From Aequorivita lipolytica (GTDB taxonomy: Bacteria; Bacteroidota; Bacteroidia; Flavobacteriales; Flavobacteriaceae), in the NCBI RefSeq assembly GCF_007997135.1, contig NZ_VORU01000001.1, positions 124,001 through 188,000 of the forward strand: a stretch of DNA of 64,000 nt, written 5' to 3'. The notes beneath the pieces are model-generated. The model did not search any database, had not been told where the DNA came from, and worked only from the letters and a program-made list of their open reading frames with translations. Positions 50,319 through 64,000 of the stretch are shown here, piece after piece (the stretch's first letter is position 1; each line of letters begins with the position of its first letter). A program made the position numbers and the translations under genes.

Positions 50319-53300
50319 TTGAAGGCAAAAAATTACGTTTACAAGGATGGCTTTTTCAAGCTTTTAGCAATTATAAGTTTCATATTGGTCAGCAATGCTT
50401 CGCTGGCTCAAGATTCTACGGCTGTAGGGAATGAAATGGGACGGATGGATCTCCCAAATCCAACCAGCATTCAGGATCTCTATACCTATGATCCCATTAC
50501 AGATAGATATATTTATACCCAAACCTTGGGTAGTTTTAATGTTACCTATCCTATTATTCTTACACCACAGGAATACCAGCGCCTTATTCAAGAGGAGCAG
50601 ATGAAGGCTTATTTTAAACAAAAGATAGATGCTGCAGATGGACGTAAGGCGGGTTCTGAAGAAGAACAGAAAAATTTACTTCCAACGTTTTATGTGAATT
50701 CAAACTTTTTTGAATCTATTTTCGGCGGAAATAGTATTGAAGTAATACCGCAAGGTTCTGTGGAAATGGATCTTGGCTTGCTTTATACAAAACAGGACAA
50801 CCCAGCCTTTTCACCCCGAAACCGCAGCAATTTTTCTTTCGACTTTGATCAAAGAATAAGTCTAAGTCTTTTGGCGAAAGTGGGAACCAGACTTCAGGTT
50901 ACTGCAAATTACGATACCGAAAGCACGTTCGATTTCCAGAACCAGATAAAGTTGGAATACACCCCAACTGAAGACGACATTATTCAGAAAATTGAAGTGG
51001 GTAACGTAAGTATGCCACTAAATAGCTCGCTTATTCAAGGAGCGCAAAGTCTTTTCGGTGTAAAAACACAGCTTCAGTTTGGGAAAACAACCATCACAGG
51101 AGTTTTCTCTGAGCAAAAATCTGAAACTCGTACTGTTTCCGCTGAAGGTGGCGCAACCATTACGGATTTTGAACTTTTCGCATTGGATTATGACGATAGC
51201 CGCCACTTCTTCTTGGCACATTATTTTAGGGACAATTATGATCGTGCGCTAGAGCTTTACCCTTTCATTAACAGTAACGTGCAGGTAACCCGAATGGAAG
51301 TTTGGATTACCAACCGCACCAGTAGAACTGAAAACGTTCGTAACATAGTTGCATTGCAGGATATTGGTGAATCAGATCCTACAAATATTGGGTTAAGTGT
51401 TCCACCGGGAGGGTTTATAAACGCGCCTAGAACCGCATATCCTGATAATGGTAACAACGATTTTAACCCCTTCGGAATAAATGGTGGTCCACAAACATTG
51501 CTTAATCCAGCAATCCGGGATGTTGCAACGGTTCGTCAAGGTTTTACTGGCGTGCAGGTAAGTGAAGGCACAGATTATGTGACACTGGAAAATGCCCGAA
51601 GGTTGGACCAGGGAGAATACACGTTGAACTCACAATTGGGTTATATATCCTTGAATCAACGTTTAAACAATGACGAAGTCTTGGCAGTTTCATATCAGTT
51701 TACTGTAAACGGAAAAGTATATCAAGTAGGAGAGTTCTCAAATGACGGGGTTGAGGCAAATGGAGGCGTACAAAATCCAGGAGGTGGAGGAAATCCTCCC
51801 GGTCAAGAAACAGGACTAGCGCAAAATCTTGTGGTAAAGCTTTTGAAAAGTAGTATTACCAATGTACAGGAGCCAGCTTGGGATTTGATGATGAAAAATA
51901 TCTACCCCATTGGAGCATACCAGCTTGAAAAAGAAGATTTTAAATTAAATATATTTTATACAGACCCATCACCGATCAACTATATAGAAAAGGCCCAAGG
52001 AGGTCCTGAACTTCCCGACGATGTTAAGGATGAAATTCTTTTAAAGGTATTCAATTTAGATAGGTTAAACTTTAATAATGACCCAGTTCAAGGCGGTGAT
52101 GGATTTTTCGATTTTCTCCCGGGAATAACGGTAGATCAACAAAACGGAAGAATCATTTTTACCACCGTGGAACCGTTTGGAAAGCATTTGTTTGATGAAC
52201 TTAACGTGCCTTCAGCTCCTGCTAATTATGACATTCCAACTACTTATAACCAAAATCAGGAGAAATACGTTTTCCGAACACTTTACACCGGAACAAAAAC
52301 CCAGGCGGAACAGCTTGAAAGTGAAAAGAATAAATTTCAGTTAAAAGGAAGTTATAAATCTACCGGTGCAGATGGAATCCCTATTGGAGCCTTCAATATT
52401 CCACAAGGTTCGGTTACCGTAACCGCAGGTGGAAGAACTTTAGTTGAAGGGGTGGATTACACCGTAAATTATCAATTGGGAAGAGTTCAGATTTTAGATC
52501 CCGGCTTGTTGAACAGCAATATTCCAATTTCTGTAAGTACCGAAAACAATTCCCTTTTTGGTCAGCAAAGCAAGCGTTTTACAGGCTTGAACGTAGAACA
52601 CAAATTCAGCGATAAATTTTTGGTGGGTGCAACTTATTTGAACCTGAACGAACGCCCATTGACCCAAAAATCCTCTTATGGTGTAGAGCCTATAAACAAC
52701 AGTGTTTTTGGAATAAATTTAAATTATTCAACAGAAGTTCCATTCCTTACCAGATTAGTAAATAAGCTTCCAAACATAGATACAGATGTAGAATCCAACG
52801 TTTCTTTACGTGGTGAATTTGCATACTTAAAACCAGGAGCACCAAAAGTTTCTGATTTTAACGGGAAGACCACAGTATATGTTGATGATTTTGAAGCTTC
52901 TCAAACGGGGAATGACATCAGCACTCCTTCCAGCTGGTCTTTAGCCAGTACACCGCTGGATTACGGAGGTGGAGAAGAATTTGCAAATGAAGATCTTCGA
53001 TACAATTATAGACGTGCTAAACTGGCTTGGTATACCATAGATCCTATTTTTTACAGCAGCCAGCGGCCTGAAGGAATTAATGATGAAGATCTTTCTTCGC
53101 CATTTACACGTCGTGTTTTTAGGGACGAAATTTTCCCTAACCAAGATATTATCCAGGGACAGACGCAGGCACTCTTCACATTAGATTTGGCGTATTATCC
53201 TTCCCAGCGCGGGGAATATAACTATAACCCCCAAGCCACAAATGGAACACTTCCAGCACCTGAAAATAATTTTGGTGGGATAATGAGATCATTGACTACA

Positions 53301-56300
53301 ACAGATTTTGAAAAATCAAATGTAGAGTATATTCAGTTTTGGGTAATGGATCCTTTCATTTATGAGGAAAATAACGGCAACCCGGGAGGAAATATCAACT
53401 TTAACCTTGGAAGCATTTCTGAAGATGTGTTAAAAGATGGCAGAAAGCAATATGAAAACGGCTTGCCTGAAGATGGCGGCAATTTAAATGTTTTGGAAAC
53501 CAACTGGGGTAAAGTACCATTAAACCAGTCTCTAGTTTACACTTTTGATACAGAAGGACAGCAGCGTACCAATCAAGATGTAGGATTTGATGGATTGAGC
53601 AATGCCGAGGAAGCATCCAAATATCCAGGTTTTGGCGATGACACCGCCAATGATGACTACCAATACTTTTTGCAGGCCGATGGCAATATTCTAGATCGCT
53701 ACTTAAAATATAACGGAACCCAAGGCAACTCACCTGTTGAGGTTACAAATACAAATCGCGGAAGCACTGCCCAACCCGATGTAGAAGATATAAATCGTGA
53801 TAATACAATGAACACGATTAACAGCTACTTTGAGTACAACGTGCCCATTTATTCCGGCATGAATCGCGAAAACAACGAGTATATTGCCGATGTTAAAGAA
53901 CTTGAAGTAACTACACAAGACAATAATGTAATCCCTGTGCGCTGGGTACAGTTTAAAATTCCAATCAGCAAGCCAGATCAGGCTAAAGGTGGAATTTCAG
54001 ATTATAGATCCATTCGTTTTATGCGTATGTACCTTTCCCAATTCACGGAAAACACCGTGTTGCGTTTTGGAACTATGGAATTGGTGCGCGGCGATTACCG
54101 AAGATTCCAACAAACATTAGATATTACAGGTGAAGACCCCACACAGGACAATACAATTTTTGAAGTAGAAGCTGTAAGTATTGAAGAAAACGAAAACCGA
54201 CAGCCAATACCCTATAGATTACCACCAGGACTGGATCGCGAAGAATTGAACAATAACAATAACATTATAAGAGAAAATGAGCAATCACTTTCTTTAAGAG
54301 TTTGTGGGCTAGAGCCAAATGATGGACGTTCTGTTTATAAGAATTTTAACGTTGACATGCGCCAGTACAAAAATCTGGAAATGTTTATTCACGCTGAATC
54401 ATTACAAAATGAAACGGCACTTTCTGATGGACAATTAGTAGCATTTATTCGTTTGGGGAACGACCTTACCAATAACTATTACGAAGTTCAAATTCCTTTA
54501 AACCCAACCAATTTTGGAGCAACCAGTGCCGAGGAAATTTGGCCGCTTGCAAATAGATTAAACCTGCGATTGGAATTACTTCAACAAATTAAAACAAGAG
54601 TTTTAGGAGATCCAACTATAGATCCTACCGAGGTAACATTCTTTAACCAATCTGAACTTGATGGTGGCTCTACCGGTGGCGAAAATGAGCTGAGAATTGG
54701 TATAAAAGGTAACCCAAGTTTTGGTAATGTTCGCAATATTATGTTAGGGGTTAGAAACACGACCAGCAATGATTTGTGCGGTGAGGTTTGGTTTAACGAA
54801 CTAAGAATGTCTGAACTAAATAATGACGGTGGTTGGGCAGCAGTTGTAAGTATGGATGCCAATCTTGCCGATTTTGCAACGATAAATGCTACGGGCAAAA
54901 GGAGTACAGTAGGTTTCGGGTCCATTGAGCAAGGACCTAACCAGAGAAGCCGGGAAGATTTACAACAGTACGACGTAGTTACAAACGTAAATCTAGGACA
55001 GTTGCTTCCTAAGAAATGGGGAATTCAATTACCCTTCAACTATGGGCGATCTGAAGAGTTGATTACCCCTCAATATGATCCAGAATTCCAAGACATAGAA
55101 CTAGAGACCCGTTTGGATAATACAGAAGATCAAGATGAAAAAGATGCTATAAAAGAGCAAGCTGTGGACTATACAAAAAGGCAGAGCGTAAACTTTATAG
55201 GGGTTCGAAAAGAACGTACTGGTGAAGCAAAGCCTCAAGTATACGATATAGAAAACTTTACGGGATCCTTTTCATATAACCAAACAGACCACCACGATTT
55301 TGAAGTAGAAGACGCGCTGGAACAAAACGTTCGCGTTGGCGCTACTTACAATTATAATTTCAAAGCAAAGCCGGTAGAACCTTTTAAGAAAAATGACTCC
55401 TTATTTACGGGTAAATATTGGCAATTTCTAAAAGATATCAACTTTAATTATTTGCCTACCAACATTTCGGTAAGTTCAAATATTACGCGACAATACAATG
55501 AGCAAAAGTTCAGAGAATTGAATTTGCTGCCGGGAAGTATTGGTCTCCCTAGATTATACCAACGTAATTTCCTTTTTGACTGGCAATATACTATAAACCA
55601 CAATTTGACTAAATCGTTGCGTTTCAATTTCACATCTTCAAACAACATGATCGTGAACAATTATGTAGACGATAATGGCTTTGTTAATAATGAAATAGGC
55701 GTTTGGGATGGATTCTTTGACGTTGGTGAACCAAACCAACATTTCCAGTCACTACAGCTCAATTATGATTTGCCCTTTAACAAATTCCCGTTTCTAAAAT
55801 TTATTCGAGCAACCTATTCCTACACTGGAGATTATCAATGGCAGGCCAGTAGTGATCTTTTCAATGAAATTCCAATTCAGTTAAGTGACGGAACTACAAA
55901 CACATATAATTTAGGAAACTCTATACAAAATGCGAGTACGCACCAAATCAACTCCAGTATAGATATGAATGGTTTTTACCGTTATGTTGGTCTAACCAAA
56001 ATAAAGAAAAGTAAAACTAGAAAATCTGCTGGAGGTAGTGATGATGGTTCTGGTGATGAAGCCCCTGGAAAAGAAGGAAAATCCGCGCGCGAAGGCAAGT
56101 TAGAAGAAGAAAAGAACGGGGAAGTTTCAACCGGAAAAAACAGTGCACCAAATGTTTTGAGTAGGGGCGCTGCTCCTGCGGGAAGTTTGAACGCTGGAGA
56201 TAAAGCGTTGAATACCGCTATTGGCTTTGCAACCATGCTTAAAAAAATTCAGTTTAATTATCAGGAAAATAACGGTATTTATTTACCGGGATATATACCT

Positions 56301-57551
56301 TCCATCGGTTTTATTGGTACGCTGAAACCTACCACAGGATTTGTTTTCGGAAGCCAGGCAGAGGTGAGGGAGCTGGCTGCACGCAAAGGTTGGCTAACGC
56401 TCTATCCAGAATTTAACGAACAATATACCGAGGTGGAAAGCCGCCAAATGGATATTCAGGCCAATTTAGAACCGATAAACGATTTGACCGTAGACATAAA
56501 TGGAAGTAGGATTTATTCTGAAAACTATTCTGAAAACTATATAGTTGAAGATGGATTATATAATTCGTTGACGCCAAACACCTTTGGAAACTTCAATATT
56601 TCAACAGTATTGATTCAAACGGCATTCAGCGCTAGCGATGAAAACAATTCTGCTGCTTTTGATGAGTTCCGCAGCAACAGACTAACAGTAGCAAACAGAC
56701 TGGCGGAGGAATATTACCAAGGGAGACCTTTTGAACGCACTGTAGATGGGTATCCAGTTGGTTTTGGTAAAAACAGTCAAGATGTTTTATTGCCATCATT
56801 TCTGGCTGCATATAAGGGGAGTAATGCTTCAAAAGAAAAAACAGGAATATTGAGAGACATTCCACTTCCTAATTGGGATGTGAAATATACTGGACTTATG
56901 AATATTGCTTGGTTTAAGAAAAACTTCAAGCGCTTTTCGCTTACCCACGGGTATCGGGCTTCGTACACGGTAAACCAATTTCAATCGAACCTTGATTACG
57001 ATGCAAACGACCCTGAGGCAGTGGACCAGGCCGGAAACTTTAAAGTAAAAACTTTACTTACAAATGTAAACTTGACCGAACAGTTCTCACCGCTACTCCG
57101 TATGGATTTTGAAATGAACAACTCAGTAAAAATTCTTGCTGAAATGCGTAAGGACCGTGCACTGTCGTTGAGCTTTGCAAATAATCTTCTTACGGAAATA
57201 AAAGGAAATGAATATATTATCGGGCTTGGATACCGAGTTAAGGATCTTCGTATTGCTACAAATTTTGGCGGTAAAAAATCCGTCATTGCGAGCGATTTAA
57301 ATTTTAAGGTAGATCTTTCAAGAAGAGACAATATAACTATTGTGAGATACTTAGATATTATTGATAATAATCAAACTACCGCTGGGCAAACTATCTATGG
57401 TGCGCAATTGTCTATAGATTATGCCTTGAGCAAGAACCTTACGGCTTTATTCTATTACGATCACACATTCTCAGAATATGCCATCTCAACCGCATTCCCG
57501 CAAACAACTATTAGAAGTGGATTTACACTTCGTTATAACTTTGGAAATTAA
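50319..57551 (+). CDS. sprA: cell surface protein SprA, T9SS outer-membrane translocon
   Basis: A 2410-residue outer-membrane protein of the size and sequence type of SprA (Sov). SprA forms the giant 36-strand beta-barrel pore of the type IX secretion system and is needed for gliding. The signal peptide is FKLLAIISFILVSNASLAQ. Typical repeats such as GSVEMDLGLLYTKQDNP, YVDDFEASQTG and RFMRMYLSQFTENTVLRFG are present. A Gly-rich loop lies near 485-500 and a Lys/Glu/Ser-rich insertion near 1893-1960. The start is TTG at 50319. It is likely co-transcribed with ruvA. Confidence 0.95.
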   Translation: MKAKNYVYKDGFFKLLAIISFILVSNASLAQDSTAVGNEMGRMDLPNPTSIQDLYTYDPITDRYIYTQTLGSFNVTYPIILTPQEYQRLIQEEQMKAYFKQKIDAADGRKAGSEEEQKNLLPTFYVNSNFFESIFGGNSIEVIPQGSVEMDLGLLYTKQDNPAFSPRNRSNFSFDFDQRISLSLLAKVGTRLQVTANYDTESTFDFQNQIKLEYTPTEDDIIQKIEVGNVSMPLNSSLIQGAQSLFGVKTQLQFGKTTITGVFSEQKSETRTVSAEGGATITDFELFALDYDDSRHFFLAHYFRDNYDRALELYPFINSNVQVTRMEVWITNRTSRTENVRNIVALQDIGESDPTNIGLSVPPGGFINAPRTAYPDNGNNDFNPFGINGGPQTLLNPAIRDVATVRQGFTGVQVSEGTDYVTLENARRLDQGEYTLNSQLGYISLNQRLNNDEVLAVSYQFTVNGKVYQVGEFSNDGVEANGGVQNPGGGGNPPGQETGLAQNLVVKLLKSSITNVQEPAWDLMMKNIYPIGAYQLEKEDFKLNIFYTDPSPINYIEKAQGGPELPDDVKDEILLKVFNLDRLNFNNDPVQGGDGFFDFLPGITVDQQNGRIIFTTVEPFGKHLFDELNVPSAPANYDIPTTYNQNQEKYVFRTLYTGTKTQAEQLESEKNKFQLKGSYKSTGADGIPIGAFNIPQGSVTVTAGGRTLVEGVDYTVNYQLGRVQILDPGLLNSNIPISVSTENNSLFGQQSKRFTGLNVEHKFSDKFLVGATYLNLNERPLTQKSSYGVEPINNSVFGINLNYSTEVPFLTRLVNKLPNIDTDVESNVSLRGEFAYLKPGAPKVSDFNGKTTVYVDDFEASQTGNDISTPSSWSLASTPLDYGGGEEFANEDLRYNYRRAKLAWYTIDPIFYSSQRPEGINDEDLSSPFTRRVFRDEIFPNQDIIQGQTQALFTLDLAYYPSQRGEYNYNPQATNGTLPAPENNFGGIMRSLTTTDFEKSNVEYIQFWVMDPFIYEENNGNPGGNINFNLGSISEDVLKDGRKQYENGLPEDGGNLNVLETNWGKVPLNQSLVYTFDTEGQQRTNQDVGFDGLSNAEEASKYPGFGDDTANDDYQYFLQADGNILDRYLKYNGTQGNSPVEVTNTNRGSTAQPDVEDINRDNTMNTINSYFEYNVPIYSGMNRENNEYIADVKELEVTTQDNNVIPVRWVQFKIPISKPDQAKGGISDYRSIRFMRMYLSQFTENTVLRFGTMELVRGDYRRFQQTLDITGEDPTQDNTIFEVEAVSIEENENRQPIPYRLPPGLDREELNNNNNIIRENEQSLSLRVCGLEPNDGRSVYKNFNVDMRQYKNLEMFIHAESLQNETALSDGQLVAFIRLGNDLTNNYYEVQIPLNPTNFGATSAEEIWPLANRLNLRLELLQQIKTRVLGDPTIDPTEVTFFNQSELDGGSTGGENELRIGIKGNPSFGNVRNIMLGVRNTTSNDLCGEVWFNELRMSELNNDGGWAAVVSMDANLADFATINATGKRSTVGFGSIEQGPNQRSREDLQQYDVVTNVNLGQLLPKKWGIQLPFNYGRSEELITPQYDPEFQDIELETRLDNTEDQDEKDAIKEQAVDYTKRQSVNFIGVRKERTGEAKPQVYDIENFTGSFSYNQTDHHDFEVEDALEQNVRVGATYNYNFKAKPVEPFKKNDSLFTGKYWQFLKDINFNYLPTNISVSSNITRQYNEQKFRELNLLPGSIGLPRLYQRNFLFDWQYTINHNLTKSLRFNFTSSNNMIVNNYVDDNGFVNNEIGVWDGFFDVGEPNQHFQSLQLNYDLPFNKFPFLKFIRATYSYTGDYQWQASSDLFNEIPIQLSDGTTNTYNLGNSIQNASTHQINSSIDMNGFYRYVGLTKIKKSKTRKSAGGSDDGSGDEAPGKEGKSAREGKLEEEKNGEVSTGKNSAPNVLSRGAAPAGSLNAGDKALNTAIGFATMLKKIQFNYQENNGIYLPGYIPSIGFIGTLKPTTGFVFGSQAEVRELAARKGWLTLYPEFNEQYTEVESRQMDIQANLEPINDLTVDINGSRIYSENYSENYIVEDGLYNSLTPNTFGNFNISTVLIQTAFSASDENNSAAFDEFRSNRLTVANRLAEEYYQGRPFERTVDGYPVGFGKNSQDVLLPSFLAAYKGSNASKEKTGILRDIPLPNWDVKYTGLMNIAWFKKNFKRFSLTHGYRASYTVNQFQSNLDYDANDPEAVDQAGNFKVKTLLTNVNLTEQFSPLLRMDFEMNNSVKILAEMRKDRALSLSFANNLLTEIKGNEYIIGLGYRVKDLRIATNFGGKKSVIASDLNFKVDLSRRDNITIVRYLDIIDNNQTTAGQTIYGAQLSIDYALSKNLTALFYYDHTFSEYAISTAFPQTTIRSGFTLRYNFGN

Positions 57552-57571: not shown

Positions 57572-57952
57572 ATGAATGTACCATCTAATTTAAAATATAC
57601 AAAAGACCACGAGTGGATAAAAATTGAAGGCGATATAGCCACTATCGGTGTAACCGATTTTGCCCAAAGCGAGCTTGGCGACATTGTATATGTAGAAGTT
57701 GAAACCGTAGGCGACACTATGGAAAAAGAAGAAGTGTTTGGAACCGTTGAAGCAGTAAAGACTGTTTCAGATCTTTTTTTACCACTCTCTGGAGAAATCA
57801 TTGAATTCAACGAAAATCTTGAATCTGAGCCCGAAAAAGTAAATACGGACGCCTACGGAGAGGGTTGGATGATAAAAATGAAAATTTCAAATCCAGATGA
57901 AATAGCTGAACTCTTGGACGATGCCGAATATAAAGCGCTTATTGAAGGCTAA
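57572..57952 (+). CDS. gcvH: glycine cleavage system H protein
   Basis: A 126-residue GcvH. The lipoyl-lysine is Lys63 in GTVEAVKTVSDL. The fold pattern KYTKDHEWIKIEG, GVTDFAQSELGDIVYVE and LSGEIIEFNENLE is complete. It shuttles the aminomethyl group between GcvP, GcvT and GcvL, which are not in this window. Location between sprA and a VanZ-like gene is conserved in Flavobacterium as far as I recall. Confidence 0.96.
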   Translation: MNVPSNLKYTKDHEWIKIEGDIATIGVTDFAQSELGDIVYVEVETVGDTMEKEEVFGTVEAVKTVSDLFLPLSGEIIEFNENLESEPEKVNTDAYGEGWMIKMKISNPDEIAELLDDAEYKALIEG

Positions 57953-58316
57953 AAACCTATTGCTTTTTGCAATACTTTATAGTTGCCTAATATCCGTACT
58001 TTTTTTTGTTCCAAGTCCACAGTTACCGGAAATAGAAGTTTCTGGGACCGATAAAATTGTTCACGGATTGATCTATTTCGTCCTTATTAATCTTTGGATG
58101 TTTTATTTTTACACAAAAAACGGATTCAGTCTAAAGCTTAAATGCATTTTAGTTCTGATTATTCTATTGTTGCTATACGGCATAATAGTTGAGATATTAC
58201 AACATCTATTAACGGTTTCTCGTCAGGCAGACATTTATGATATAGCTGCAAACTTAATAGGTTCATTACTTGGAATCTTTTTTTTCCAAAACATAAAAAA
58301 ATATTTAAATACTTAA
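57921..58316 (+). CDS. VanZ-like membrane protein
   Basis: A 131-residue protein with four TM helices (about 12-30, 49-64, 76-97 and 108-125) and the VanZ-family pattern: TDKIVHGLIYFVL, VEILQHLLTVSRQADIYDIAANLIGS in two parts. VanZ itself raises teicoplanin resistance; most relatives have no known role. ATG at 57921 overlaps gcvH by 32 bases; a TTG at 57942 is a less overlapping alternative. Co-transcription with gcvH is likely. Confidence 0.8.
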   Translation: MPNIKRLLKAKNLLLFAILYSCLISVLFFVPSPQLPEIEVSGTDKIVHGLIYFVLINLWMFYFYTKNGFSLKLKCILVLIILLLLYGIIVEILQHLLTVSRQADIYDIAANLIGSLLGIFFFQNIKKYLNT

Positions 58317-58382: not shown

Positions 58383-59105
58383 ATGGAACCCAAAAAAAAT
58401 CCAAAAGCAGATGTAACCCGAAGAAGCATGCTTTTCTTCCAGCTCGGAATGGTTTTAATGCTCTTCCTTGCCTGGCAGGCAATTGAATGGAAGACCTATG
58501 ATAAGTCTGATTCCGACTTCGGAAAACTTGACGTAGGCGATGAGCTTGAAGAGGAAATCCCAATTACCCAGCAATTAACGCCACCACCGCCACCACCACC
58601 GCCGCCACCAGCCCCTGAAGTTATTGAGGTAATGGAGGATGAAGTGGAAGAGGAAGAAACTGTAATAAAATCTACCGAAGTGAAACAAGATGAAAAAATT
58701 GTTGAGGTTAAGGAGATTAAGGAAGAAGTGGTTGAAGAAGAAATTGCCGACGTACCTTTTGCTGTAATTGAAAATGTGCCTATCTATCCAGGCTGCGAAA
58801 AGGAAAGTGGGAACGATGCCAAAAAGAAGTGCATGTCTTCTAAAATAAGTGAGTTTATTAATAAGAAATTTGATAGTAATCTTGCGTCAGACTTAGGTTT
58901 GGAAGGAAGACAACGTATAGCGGTTCAATTTAAAATTGACAAAAACGGAAAAGTTGTAGACGTGCGCGCACGTGCACCACACCCAAGACTTGAAAAAGAA
59001 GCGATGGATGTAGTGAATTCGCTGCCTAATATGACTCCAGGAAAACAAAGAGGAAAACCAGTTGGGGTGCTTTATTCACTTCCGATTGTGTTTGATATTC
59101 AATAG
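58383..59105 (+). CDS. TonB-family energy transducer (paralogue 1)
   Basis: A 240-residue protein. A cytoplasmic basic start is followed by one TM helix (about 18-36), a run of ten prolines (about 67-76), an acidic Val/Glu-rich linker, and a TonB C-terminal domain (about 150-240). That domain includes NVPIYPGCE and KKKCMSSKISEFINKKF, then IAVQFKIDKNGKVVDVRA. TonB transmits proton-motive force from ExbBD to outer-membrane receptors; no exbBD genes are here. It lies directly in front of a second tonB-like gene. Confidence 0.9.
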   Translation: MEPKKNPKADVTRRSMLFFQLGMVLMLFLAWQAIEWKTYDKSDSDFGKLDVGDELEEEIPITQQLTPPPPPPPPPPAPEVIEVMEDEVEEEETVIKSTEVKQDEKIVEVKEIKEEVVEEEIADVPFAVIENVPIYPGCEKESGNDAKKKCMSSKISEFINKKFDSNLASDLGLEGRQRIAVQFKIDKNGKVVDVRARAPHPRLEKEAMDVVNSLPNMTPGKQRGKPVGVLYSLPIVFDIQ

Positions 59106-59120
59106 AAATTATATTATTTC

Positions 59121-59159
59121 AAAAACCCCGTCCTTACATCAGTAATGACGGGGTTTTTT
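59121..59159 (+). terminator. intrinsic terminator after the first tonB-like gene
   Basis: AAAAACCCCGTC (59121-59132) pairs with GACGGGGTTTTT (59147-59158), ending in a T-run. It separates the two tonB-like genes into different transcripts. Confidence 0.88.
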
Positions 59160-59217
59160 GCGTTTTGGCATAACAGTTGTGTTTTCATAAAAGTATTAAC
59201 GTTTAAATCACTTCATT

Positions 59218-59997
59218 ATGAAAACAACAGGAAAAAATGCTCAAAACAAAAGAGACGAAAAAAAACAGACAAACATTAAATGGAATTCACGTTTGTTCTT
59301 TCAACTAGGAATTGTTCTTAGTCTGCTTGTAGTTTTTTTTATAATGCAGACTGATTTTAAAATTAAAACCTATCAAGCTACTTCTACTACATCTCATAGT
59401 TTAGAAGAACCACCGATGTTTGATTATGTGATTGATGTGGATAAACCCAAACCTATTGAACCTATAAAAAAGGTTCCTCAAAAACGTGAGCCAATTAAAA
59501 GAGTGGTAAAAAGTACTACGTTTGATGTAAAGCCGAATACAGACCCAACAATTGAAACGCCCATTGCACCTACGGATGGGCCAGTGGTAGAAGCTCCCCA
59601 AGAGCCTGTAACTGTTGAGCCCAATTCGGGATCAGATAAACCTAGAATACTTGCCAGTGTTGAGTTTGTACCAGTATTTCCAGGTTGTGAAGTCTTGAAT
59701 ACTAATAAAGAAAAAGTAGATTGCATGTCCTCAAAAATTAATTCGTTCATTAATAAAAATTTCAAAAAAGAATTGTTGGAAGATCTTAAACCGAACGAAG
59801 ACTACAGAATTTACGTAAGTTTTAAAATAGATCTCAATGGTTATGTAACTGATGTGGTTGCAAATTCTAGAAATGCTAATTTAAAAAATGAAGCCCAACG
59901 CGTTATAAAAAAGTTGCCCGCTATGAAACCAGGAAAACAGGGGGATAAAAACGTGGAAGTACTGTATAACCTTCCAATTATTTTCAATATTCAATAA
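59218..59997 (+). CDS. TonB-family energy transducer (paralogue 2)
   Basis: A 259-residue paralogue of the preceding gene: TM helix (about 24-43), a Lys/Pro-rich linker (KPKPIEPIKKVPQKREPIK) and a C-terminal TonB domain with FVPVFPGCE, DCMSSKINSFINKNF and VSFKIDLNGYVTDVV. The TM region starts with the same SRLFFQLGIVL wording as paralogue 1 (RSMLFFQLGMVL), so the pair arose by duplication. The linkers differ: proline-acidic in one, basic in the other, which may tune the reach or partner. Confidence 0.9.
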   Translation: MKTTGKNAQNKRDEKKQTNIKWNSRLFFQLGIVLSLLVVFFIMQTDFKIKTYQATSTTSHSLEEPPMFDYVIDVDKPKPIEPIKKVPQKREPIKRVVKSTTFDVKPNTDPTIETPIAPTDGPVVEAPQEPVTVEPNSGSDKPRILASVEFVPVFPGCEVLNTNKEKVDCMSSKINSFINKNFKKELLEDLKPNEDYRIYVSFKIDLNGYVTDVVANSRNANLKNEAQRVIKKLPAMKPGKQGDKNVEVLYNLPIIFNIQ

Positions 59998-60020
59998 CAA
60001 GATTTTCATTGATTATTGAT

Positions 60021-60049
60021 AGCTCCCCTTAAAAAAGGGAGCTTTTTTT
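60021..60049 (+). terminator. intrinsic terminator after the second tonB-like gene
   Basis: AGCTCCCCTT (60021-60030) pairs with AAGGGAGCT (about 60034-60042) and seven Ts follow. It ends the transcript of the second tonB-like gene before remB. Confidence 0.88.
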
Positions 60050-60105
60050 GATTTCGGTCATTACAAAAAAACTGTATCTTTCGGAATTAAACAATCAACC
60101 CCCCG

Positions 60106-62196
60106 ATGAAGCATCTTCTCACTCTTTTTATTCTTAATTTTTCAGTAATATCTTTGGCTCAGATCCCTTCGGCCCAATATGAGAAATATCCCGTTTTTGA
60201 AGATTGCGAGAGTGCAGAAGTTCAAGCGCTGCAAAATTGTTTTAATGATAATTTGCAACGGTTCATTTTTCAAAATTTTAAAGTACCAGAAAAAGTTTTT
60301 GCCGAAAACTATAAAGGAAATGTAAATGTGCTTTTTGAAGTTACCAAGAAAGGAGAATTCAAGGTCCTCTATGTGGATGCAATTTATGAAGAATTAAAAG
60401 CGGAGGCGCAACGTGTTTTTGAATCACTTCCTGCAGTAGCGCCAGCAACTTACAATGGCAAGCCCGCTTATGTGCAGTTTACACTCCCCATTGCCATTCC
60501 GTTGGTGAAACCGGGACAAAGCATTGTTCAGTCCACCGAAATAATTAAAAAGAATGAGAGGGAAAAATTTGTTGAAGAGTATGATGCAATTGAGAATCTT
60601 CCCTACGGAAATGAAGAATATCGCAGCAATATCAATATTCCCCTTTCACACCATAATTACAGTTTGTTTGATCCCGCGATGAACCGTGTGGGCTTAAACA
60701 ATCACACTGCCCAAAAGCCGTATATCTATTCTGAGGTGAATAAATATTATGATTTTGAAGATGCAAATAAAGAAATTTTAAAAAATAAATCCTCTTGGTT
60801 TGGTCGTAAATTGTGGAACGAACATTTTATCACCATAAAAGGGAAAGACTATTGGCTCACCCTGGATCCCGGAGTAGACCTGCAGCTAGGAAAGGATATT
60901 GATGCAGATATAGATACTTACAACAATACTCGGTTGATTTATACACAGGGCGGTATTGGTAAACAGATTGGTTTCTTCGGTGTTATTTATGAGAGTCAGG
61001 GACGCTTCGCAGACTACTTCAACAGATATGCAGAATCCATTCGGCCCGACGGAGGAAATCCCGCAATCATTCCAGGCCGCGGTATAGCAAAGGGCTTTAA
61101 GACGGATTCTTATGATTATCCCATCGCAACTGGGCATCTATCGTACACGCCTTCAAAATATTTCAACATTCAGCTTGGGCACGGTAAAACTTTTTTGGGT
61201 GATGGTTATCGCTCTTTGCTTACCAGCGACAATGCAAGTTCATATCCTTTCTTTAAAATAAATACCACTTTCTGGAAGCTGAAATATACCAATACATGGA
61301 TGTCCCTCCGCGATGTGCGCCCAGATGTTACCGAGGATGGCTCGTTCCGCACAAAATATATAGCAAATCACTATTTAAGCTATAACATTACCAAACGTTT
61401 AAACATAGGCCTTTTTGAATCTGTTATTTGGCAAAATGACAACGGCCGTGGTTTTGACGTTAATTACTTAAATCCAATTATTTTTTATCGTGCCATAGAA
61501 TTCTCAACAGGATCTCGCGGCGGTAATGCTTTGATTGGGATCACCACAAAATACAAAGTGAACGATCAAATTAATTTTTACGGACAATTTATTATTGACG
61601 AATTTTCCTCCAGCGACGTTTTTGGCGGAGAGGGAAGTTATAAAAATAAAACCGGCTACCAGCTCGGTCTGAAATACTACAATGCTTTTGGATTTAAAAA
61701 CTTGTACTTACAGACCGAATACAACAGGGTTCGGCCATATACCTATTCGCACAATACTATAGTTTTAAATTATGGACACAACAACCAGTCTATGGCGCAT
61801 ACACTGGGAGCAAATTTTTCCGAATTTATTGCCATTGCGCGTTACCAAAACGGAAGACTCTATGGCGATGCTAAGTTTATTTTCGCAAAACGCGGTTTTG
61901 AGTTCAACACTCCAGAAGATTCGTTTTTTTACGGAGGCGATATTTATGGAACTGAAGACGATCGTATTTCTGACAAGGGCAACGATTTGGCACAAGGAAA
62001 TACAACAGATTTTTTCCACGCTGAAATTCAGGCAGGATATGTAATAAATCCTGCTACCAATTTAAAAATATACGGAAGCTTTATTTTTAGGAAATTTGAA
62101 CCCAAAGTGGAAACTGAAACCGTGTTTACAAATCAGACATCTTGGGTAAATTTTGGTATCAGGACAGACCTCTTTAATTGGTACTATGATTTTTAA
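60106..62196 (+). CDS. remB: gliding motility protein RemB, with N-terminal TonB-CTD-like domain
   Basis: A 696-residue outer-membrane protein. The signal peptide is KHLLTLFILNFSVISLAQ. Residues about 24-145 have the same pattern as the TonB C-terminal domains next door: YPVFEDCE, LQNCFNDNLQRFIFQNF, VNVLFEVTKKGEFKVL and AEAQRVFESLPAVAPATYNG. The remaining about 550 residues are rich in amphipathic strands and end in F (FNWYYDF), as in outer-membrane barrels. RemB is a mobile gliding protein in F. johnsoniae, where it is close to sprA. Its own start follows a TATCTTTC box at 60075. Confidence 0.82.
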   Translation: MKHLLTLFILNFSVISLAQIPSAQYEKYPVFEDCESAEVQALQNCFNDNLQRFIFQNFKVPEKVFAENYKGNVNVLFEVTKKGEFKVLYVDAIYEELKAEAQRVFESLPAVAPATYNGKPAYVQFTLPIAIPLVKPGQSIVQSTEIIKKNEREKFVEEYDAIENLPYGNEEYRSNINIPLSHHNYSLFDPAMNRVGLNNHTAQKPYIYSEVNKYYDFEDANKEILKNKSSWFGRKLWNEHFITIKGKDYWLTLDPGVDLQLGKDIDADIDTYNNTRLIYTQGGIGKQIGFFGVIYESQGRFADYFNRYAESIRPDGGNPAIIPGRGIAKGFKTDSYDYPIATGHLSYTPSKYFNIQLGHGKTFLGDGYRSLLTSDNASSYPFFKINTTFWKLKYTNTWMSLRDVRPDVTEDGSFRTKYIANHYLSYNITKRLNIGLFESVIWQNDNGRGFDVNYLNPIIFYRAIEFSTGSRGGNALIGITTKYKVNDQINFYGQFIIDEFSSSDVFGGEGSYKNKTGYQLGLKYYNAFGFKNLYLQTEYNRVRPYTYSHNTIVLNYGHNNQSMAHTLGANFSEFIAIARYQNGRLYGDAKFIFAKRGFEFNTPEDSFFYGGDIYGTEDDRISDKGNDLAQGNTTDFFHAEIQAGYVINPATNLKIYGSFIFRKFEPKVETETVFTNQTSWVNFGIRTDLFNWYYDF

Positions 62197-63311: not shown

Positions 63312-63342
63312 TTGCAAAAAAAATACAGGAAGCGTATCTTTG
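63312..63342 (+). promoter_or_regulatory. ctaB: promoter of ctaB
   Basis: TTG (63312-63314) and TATCTTTG (63335-63342) are 20 bases apart, the best-spaced -33/-7 pair in the window together with that of maeB. Transcription would start near 63349, about 14 bases before the proposed TTG start. Confidence 0.7.
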
Positions 63343-63362
63343 CACAGCCTAAAAAAAAGAGC

Positions 63363-64000
63363 TTGTCCGTTTCTCAATCACAATCAATTAACCCGTCAGT
63401 TATCAGGAATTTTACCGAAATAACCAAGCTTCGCCTTTCGGTGAGTGTGGTTTTTTCTTCGGTGGCAGGTTATTTATTGGGAGCTGAAACAATTGACTTT
63501 TTCGTGCTTTTTTTATTGTGTGTTGGTGGCTATTGTATGGTTGGCGCTTCAAATGTTTACAACCAGATCATTGAAAAAGATTTGGACTCGCTAATGGACC
63601 GCACAAAAAACAGGCCGTTGCCCGCAGGACATATGAATGTTCGTTCAGCGTTTATACTTGCAAGTATATTGACCGTTCTAGGTGTTGTTGTACTTTATAC
63701 CATCAATCCTATTACGGCAATGTTTGGCGCCATTTCCATCTTTATGTACGTGAGCCTTTACACGCCCTTAAAAACCAAGACTCCGCTTTCGGTATTTGTG
63801 GGTGCATTTCCTGGGGCCATACCGTTTATGCTGGGTTGGGTTGCGGCAACGGGCCAATTCGGCATTGAATCTGGCACCTTATTTATGGTTCAGTTTTTTT
63901 GGCAGTTTCCACACTTTTGGGCCATTGGCTGGTTCCTTTTTGATGATTATAAGAAAGCGGGATTTTTTATGCTTCCTAACGGAAAACGTGACAAAGGAAC
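63363..64000 (+). CDS. ctaB: heme O synthase (protoheme IX farnesyltransferase), 3' end beyond the window
   Basis: An open frame of 212 codons runs off the right edge. The product has the UbiA/CtaB signature N-x3-E-x-D-x3-D-x2-M-x-R-T (NQIIEKDLDSLMDRT) with the second loop YTPLKTKT, and several TM helices (FVLFLLCVGGYCMVGAS, SAFILASILTVLGVVVL). It farnesylates heme b to heme O on the way to heme A for the aa3 oxidase at 40844-43756. No ATG precedes the family N-terminus (ITKLRLSVSVVFSS), so TTG at 63363 is taken as start. The subunit III genes often found after ctaB would be outside the window. Confidence 0.9.
   Translation, partial: MSVSQSQSINPSVIRNFTEITKLRLSVSVVFSSVAGYLLGAETIDFFVLFLLCVGGYCMVGASNVYNQIIEKDLDSLMDRTKNRPLPAGHMNVRSAFILASILTVLGVVVLYTINPITAMFGAISIFMYVSLYTPLKTKTPLSVFVGAFPGAIPFMLGWVAATGQFGIESGTLFMVQFFWQFPHFWAIGWFLFDDYKKAGFFMLPNGKRDKG

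Follow-up and report, generated by a model that had tools for sequence, protein, structure and literature searches.

RemB is tabulated in genome papers as 'adhesin-like' next to RemA and SprB (PMC4891872, PMC6801697), and RemA has been reported to bind galactose-containing exopolysaccharide (PMC8481357). The literature that we searched describes no mechanism for RemB as a gliding 'adhesin', and no description of a TonB_C domain or of a Wzi relation of RemB was found in it, most subscription journals lying outside the search. In this study we analyzed remB in a 64,000-nucleotide stretch of Aequorivita lipolytica DNA (assembly GCF_007997135.1, contig NZ_VORU01000001.1, positions 124,001 to 188,000; the window is this whole stretch), where the gene lies near sprA, which encodes the translocon of the type 9 secretion system (T9SS). 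The architecture of RemB, a TonB_C-type domain followed by an outer-membrane barrel, is well supported. Our preferred reading, to which we give an even chance, is that RemB is a barrel of the Wzi kind which binds polysaccharide and which, in the Flavobacteriaceae, carries a lineage-specific periplasmic adaptor of TonB/TolA fold.

The closest described systems are Wzi, the TonB/TolA C-terminal domains and the gliding adhesins. Wzi is a lectin of the outer membrane that takes part in group 1 capsule assembly, and RemB is predicted to be likewise an 18-stranded barrel with helices ahead of it on the periplasmic side; compared with Wzi, RemB bears an extra N-terminal TonB_C domain, adjoins sprA, and is a putative sugar binder. 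The TonB/TolA C-terminal domain (PF03544) resembles the RemB domain in both sequence profile and predicted fold, and the two have in common the cysteine pair, P29, G83, E100, P109 and P113, whereas RemB is without the inner-membrane anchor or Pro-rich linker of TonB, has its domain fused ahead of a barrel and displays signature residues of its own. RemA and SprB are gliding adhesins beside which RemB is tabulated, but RemB has no detectable T9SS C-terminal signal: no T9SS sorting domain was found in it with Pfam and NCBIfam at E <= 1. Because of this, and because the predicted barrel ends in an aromatic residue, RemB is unlikely to be a T9SS-secreted adhesin, and the genome-paper tables that call it one are not supported by its sequence. 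The preliminary description of this DNA took RemB for a mobile surface protein, which the literature searched did not confirm, giving only the 'adhesin-like' listing.

The N-terminal domain of RemB

The features of remB in the window were as follows.

60106..62196, + strand: remB, encoding a 696-amino acid (aa) outer-membrane protein (open reading frame, orthologues, alignment)
60106..60159, + strand: signal peptide, aa 1-18, followed by the conserved Q19 (invariant or >90%)
60181..60504, + strand: periplasmic domain of TonB_C fold, aa 26-133 (PF03544, hhalign, model)
60205..60207, + strand: Cys34, invariant (alignment)
60238..60240, + strand: Cys45, invariant, probable intradomain disulfide partner of Cys34 (alignment)
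60505..60615, + strand: low-confidence linker, aa 134-170 (predicted local distance difference test score, pLDDT, 41-49 in aa 141-160)
60613..60825, + strand: pre-barrel helical segment, aa 170-240, inside the Wzi-matching part, which begins at aa 174 (model)
60850..62166, + strand: 18-stranded Wzi-like beta-barrel, aa 249-687 (model, fold comparison, bridging homologues)

PF03544 (TonB_C; curated cut-off, 24.6 bits) was matched over the cut-off at five places in the A. lipolytica genome. Three of these were tonB1 (41.7 bits), tonB2 (31.2 bits) and the N-terminal domain of RemB (26.7 bits), and the other two were a stand-alone secreted protein (40.8 bits) and an M56-peptidase fusion (34.6 bits). 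In the protein scan, full-length RemB reached 22.1 bits (E 2.1e-4), just under the whole-protein cut-off, and the domain in isolation scored 26.2 bits. Among 59 orthologous RemB domains, 43 matched PF03544 at E <= 0.01, and essentially no other family was matched. A RemB domain profile built from 180 sequences aligned by hhalign to the C-terminal domain of TonB1 (probability 99.5, E 6.5e-23, 109 columns) and to that of TonB2 (probability 99.3, E 1.3e-20). These scores, together with the cysteines kept in all three proteins, demonstrate that the likeness of the RemB domain to the TonB C-terminal domain is true homology and not chance.

The predicted model of the isolated domain (pLDDT 91.9) was in agreement. 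Its best solved match was 6i97_D (Z 8.4, 87/90 residues), the C-terminal domain of Pseudomonas aeruginosa TonB in complex with FoxA; 1lr0 (Z 8.1) and 5lw8 (Z 7.6) matched as well, and all solved matches with Z >= 4 were TonB/TolA-type C-terminal domains except one DUF5043 protein. The latter, PDB 4qe0 of Bacteroides uniformis, was a weak match (Z 4.4) and perhaps represents a distant TonB_C-like family in Bacteroidota. A TonB-C-terminal-like domain in three consecutive genes, as proposed in the preliminary description, is thus borne out by PF03544 matches, hhalign and predicted fold, and the three open reading frames lie where they were placed; the profile hidden Markov model comparison proposed there gave a significant TonB_C match for RemB. 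TonB energy transducers, which energise TonB-dependent receptors by way of the receptors' TonB box, have an uncleaved N-terminal inner-membrane anchor in contact with ExbB/ExbD, and TonB1 and TonB2 do possess an anchor; the order in RemB is signal peptide, domain and barrel, with the domain predicted to lie in the periplasm.

Cys34 and Cys45, 11 residues apart, are the sole cysteines of the window's RemB. As noted at the outset of this work, both are present in TonB1, TonB2 and RemB; they also occur in essentially all RemB orthologues, and the flavobacterial TonB_C domains examined, TonBs and fusions alike, had the same pair essentially without exception, so the cysteines establish no special link among the three genes. 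A special meaning of the pair in RemB was considered and weakened, the pair being common to all TonB_C domains of the sampled genomes. The simpler reading is that Cys34 and Cys45 would form a disulfide within the domain, as a general feature of the family. A more particular role is suggested by SprF and PorG, which form disulfide links to the track protein GldK, a part of the moving track, via twin cysteines (Liu et al. 2025, PMC12635249) and are, like RemB, outer-membrane proteins with two periplasmic cysteines in a gliding/T9SS context. RemB might similarly be a client of the track, Cys34 and Cys45 giving up the disulfide between them for one to Cys343 of GldK, given that SprF and PorG use donor disulfides of just this kind (PMC12635249) and that the only two cysteines of RemB are invariant and sit in a predicted periplasmic domain. 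We regard this as very unlikely indeed: the cysteines of SprF and PorG are in C-terminal tails, whereas those of RemB are the general TonB_C pair within a folded N-terminal domain; TonBs and M56 fusions, with no reason to bind GldK, have the same pair; and the barrel-only RemB of one family genome is without it.

Several other TonB_C proteins were observed. (G, L, C, f and g numbers are our handles for genomes, loci, contigs, families and a genus.) The stand-alone secreted protein of about 144-147 aa (L002 1309-1740; C27 of the A. lipolytica genome) carries a signal peptide but lacks a membrane anchor, matches the RemB domain better than any other non-RemB protein of that genome (35% identity) and has orthologues in G039, G069 and others. 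The M56 (BlaR1-type) peptidase-TonB_C fusion adjoins a small lipoprotein (L003 1495-2910 and 892-1380; C36 of the same genome) with a divergent TonB_C-like domain missed by Pfam. Single proteins with three TonB_C domains in a row (G054:C1:1130092-1131072, L218) and with two (G001:C6:117584-118255, L216) were also seen.

The barrel and the gene context of its homologues

The full-length RemB model (pLDDT 81.8) contained 18 strands. VIA-align ranked Escherichia coli Wzi (2YNK) first, with a Z of 25.4, a root-mean-square deviation of 3.3 and 375/441 residues aligned, the match spanning RemB 174-687 with the pre-barrel helices included; AlgE ranked second (Z 18.4). Foldseek on its own put porins of OprD/Occ type first for the whole RemB model, and VIA-align had Wzi clearly ahead. 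Bridging open reading frames in four genomes (G541, G409, G526 and G362) scored over cut-off against PF14052 (Wzi) and also matched the RemB profile, at E 1e-45 to 1e-57. No TonB-dependent-receptor plug or barrel family was found in RemB by Pfam at E <= 1, and the 18 strands of the model compare with 22 in such receptors. When solved structures were searched by sequence, with RemB or its profiles as query, nothing relevant was returned; it was profiles and fold comparison that yielded the matches to Wzi and TonB. That the barrel is an outer-membrane barrel of Wzi type is well supported by the model and the bridging homologues. The A. lipolytica genome also has a separate, true PF14052 gene, which lies no more than 4 kb from a Wza-type one (PF02563; G000:C8, 39488-40138 and 43387-43683 cited), so RemB is not the sole Wzi-type protein there.

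Most of the barrel-only homologues examined in other families stand beside genes for Polysacc_synt_2, family 1/4 glycosyltransferases, a hexapeptide acetyltransferase or exosortase-like proteins, and this gene context points to a polysaccharide-related ancestral role of the barrel. A gene for a UbiA-family prenyltransferase lies downstream of barrel-only homologues in two other families (L237, L244) and of remB in the window, which supports the orthology of RemB with these homologues. Among relatives in the same order (L232-L241), the barrel-only remB homologue often comes directly after a Polysacc_synt_2 gene of 630-660 aa; an exosortase-like gene is next in L232, and genes of similar size occupy that place in L233, L238 and L241.

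In the preferred reading, the barrel would most likely bind a surface or secreted polysaccharide on the outer face, as Wzi of E. coli does. The TonB/TolA-fold domain, added ahead of the barrel in Flavobacteriaceae, would hang in the periplasm on a linker of ~35 residues and most likely work as an adaptor, its free edge strand gripping a periplasmic or envelope partner as in TonB and TolA domains. RemB may in this way tether a polysaccharide-binding barrel to envelope machinery by the gliding/T9SS apparatus. In the family, a Wza-type outer-membrane polysaccharide export gene (OPX, PF02563) was present in 103/103 genomes with RemB and 36/46 without (p 3.7e-6; OPX copies, 2.0 and 1.0, respectively), a suggestive association that speaks for this reading, as does the exopolysaccharide binding reported for RemA, another rem adhesin.

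Several observations weigh against this reading. RemB itself had no PF14052 match at E <= 1 in the Pfam scan, so its Wzi homology rests on the intermediates and the fold. In Flavobacteriaceae, remB adjoins sprA and not a capsule locus. The OPX association is confounded by phylogeny: the only five well-supported independent contrasts on the GldJ tree were not significant, although they were in the same direction or neutral and never opposite. (GldJ itself, over cut-off in 148/149 genomes, was uninformative as a gliding marker.) One family genome, G112, has a barrel-only RemB of 541 aa, and the domain is dispensable there. Finally, both the carbohydrate binding of RemB and the partner of its adaptor are what we infer.

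Distribution and origin of the domain

The TonB_C domain was found in 179 of 180 RemB loci of Flavobacteriaceae, which came from two source collections in which some genomes may both occur; the domain is thus fixed in the family, and its absence from most orthologues, which would have told against the preliminary description, was not what we found. P29, C34, C45, G83, F105 and other residues were invariant or nearly so in the family alignment. In homologues from outside this family (f1), whether of the same order or across the phylum, the match to the RemB profile begins at position ~175 or later, which leaves the barrel only, and no TonB_C domain ahead of the barrel was found in any homologue outside f1 in the searched samples.

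In the barrel tree, the G112 protein had a long branch nested among domain-bearing proteins, a position that suggests domain loss, and the barrel-only family f2 formed the sister group. With the non-family homologues and f2 barrel-only and G112 nested among domain-bearing RemBs, we place a single gain of the domain at the base of the Flavobacteriaceae RemB. In the domain tree, the RemB domains formed one clade (100/99) with a long stem, while TonB1 and TonB2 grouped with other TonBs and M56 fusions. By this phylogeny the RemB domains are a clade of their own, old and separate, and do not make up a tandem family with TonB1 and TonB2; the tree ruled out that the three domains arose by tandem duplication. 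Ten residues (F46, P61, E78, Y89, Y94, F105, Y116, N117, Q124 and P132) were near-invariant and specific to RemB where TonBs differ, and in the RemB clade TonB signature residues had given way to others in the PGKQRGK loop and on the last strand. The RemB-specific conserved residues suggest a distinct binding surface.

The domain could instead be a passive structural module, without a force-transmitting partner of its own, that gates or stabilizes the barrel or anchors RemB to assembly machinery or peptidoglycan. Its presence in nearly all family RemBs whatever the neighbours, the occurrence of TonB_C domains in many settings here, including the stand-alone secreted protein and the M56 peptidase fusion, and the barrel-only homologues throughout the phylum would all fit such a module. 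The ten RemB-specific residues, from F46 to P132, exceed the needs of a mere spacer, and a flexible linker joins the domain to the barrel, so that the domain is not packed under it; we consider a passive role possible but doubtful.

Neighbouring tonB genes and candidate partners

The genes and features around remB were as follows.

50319..57551, + strand: sprA, type 9 secretion translocon (open reading frame; PF14349 SprA_N; neighbour across the family)
57572..57952, + strand: gcvH, glycine cleavage H protein (PF01597)
57921..58316, + strand: vanZ, VanZ-like membrane protein (PF04892, E 4.1e-6, 27.9 bits, just under the Pfam cut-off of 30.1)
58383..59105, + strand: tonB1 (PF03544, 39.3 bits in the protein scan; Pro-rich linker; hydropathy)
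58428-58484, + strand: tonB1 hydrophobic anchor, aa 16-34 (hydropathy)
58884-59099, + strand: tonB1 TonB_C domain (PF03544)
59121..59158, + strand: hairpin and T-run between tonB1 and tonB2, intrinsic-terminator-like (fold -21.9 kcal/mol, z -5.7)
59218..59997, + strand: tonB2 (PF03544, 29.0 bits in the protein scan; proline-rich stretch)
59293-59349, + strand: tonB2 hydrophobic anchor, aa 26-44 (hydropathy)
59809-59991, + strand: tonB2 TonB_C domain (PF03544)
60021..60043, + strand: hairpin and T-run between tonB2 and remB, intrinsic-terminator-like (fold -14.0 kcal/mol, z -2.5)
63312..63998, + strand: UbiA-family prenyltransferase, start of gene (PF01040)

One or two tonB genes lie between vanZ and remB in most genera, and tonB adjoins remB in 176 of 180 family loci sampled. 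A strict remB-tonB linkage was considered, which looked near-universal across genera yet fails in genus g111 (probably Flavobacterium): 18 of its 20 loci have no tonB between sprA and remB, and the RemB domain and both cysteines are kept. In the g111 loci without tonB (L083, L260-L268, L270, L271, L273-L278), a 247-259-aa aldolase of the DeoC/LacD family (Pfam checked in L265) was observed between vanZ and remB. The published locus tags Fjoh_1653 for sprA and Fjoh_1657 for remB speak for the assignment of g111 to Flavobacterium, as does the size of the genus. In two genomes without RemB, tonB is still beside gcvH and sprA or vanZ. In the window, tonB1 and tonB2 are each followed by a stable hairpin with a T-run, so tonB1, tonB2 and remB are probably transcribed separately.

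These data bear on the proposal, made in the preliminary description, that the RemB domain docks onto or mimics the adjacent TonBs and couples proton-motive force to RemB. More broadly stated, the domain would pair or compete with a TonB C-terminal domain, of these two or of another TonB, and either couple proton-motive force to RemB or regulate TonB. TonB domains can dimerise, and such pairing would agree with the common fold and family and with the adjacent tonB genes. The proposal did not hold up well, and we judge pairing unlikely: g111 keeps the domain without a local tonB, the putative terminators separate the genes into transcription units, and tonB stays by sprA and gcvH where RemB is absent. 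Furthermore, the RemB clade has diverged at the loop and last strand that carry the TonB signature, and the barrel is Wzi-like and no TonB-dependent receptor. The g111 loci, the terminators and the separate RemB clade together argue that the local link of tonB and remB does not reflect physical pairing of their products. Conjectural and distinctly unlikely is a reading of RemB as a powered Wzi. Here the TonB-fold domain would link a polysaccharide-binding barrel to a force-generating machine of the envelope, either TonB/ExbBD or the gliding track, and surface polysaccharide would thereby be moved or passed to gliding adhesins.

Read as a Wzi-type barrel with a periplasmic adaptor, RemB has a testable role and would connect surface polysaccharide and adhesins in gliding. 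It also offers an example of a TonB-type domain carried in the periplasm from the outer-membrane side, and one may ask what domains of this type bind outside TonB.

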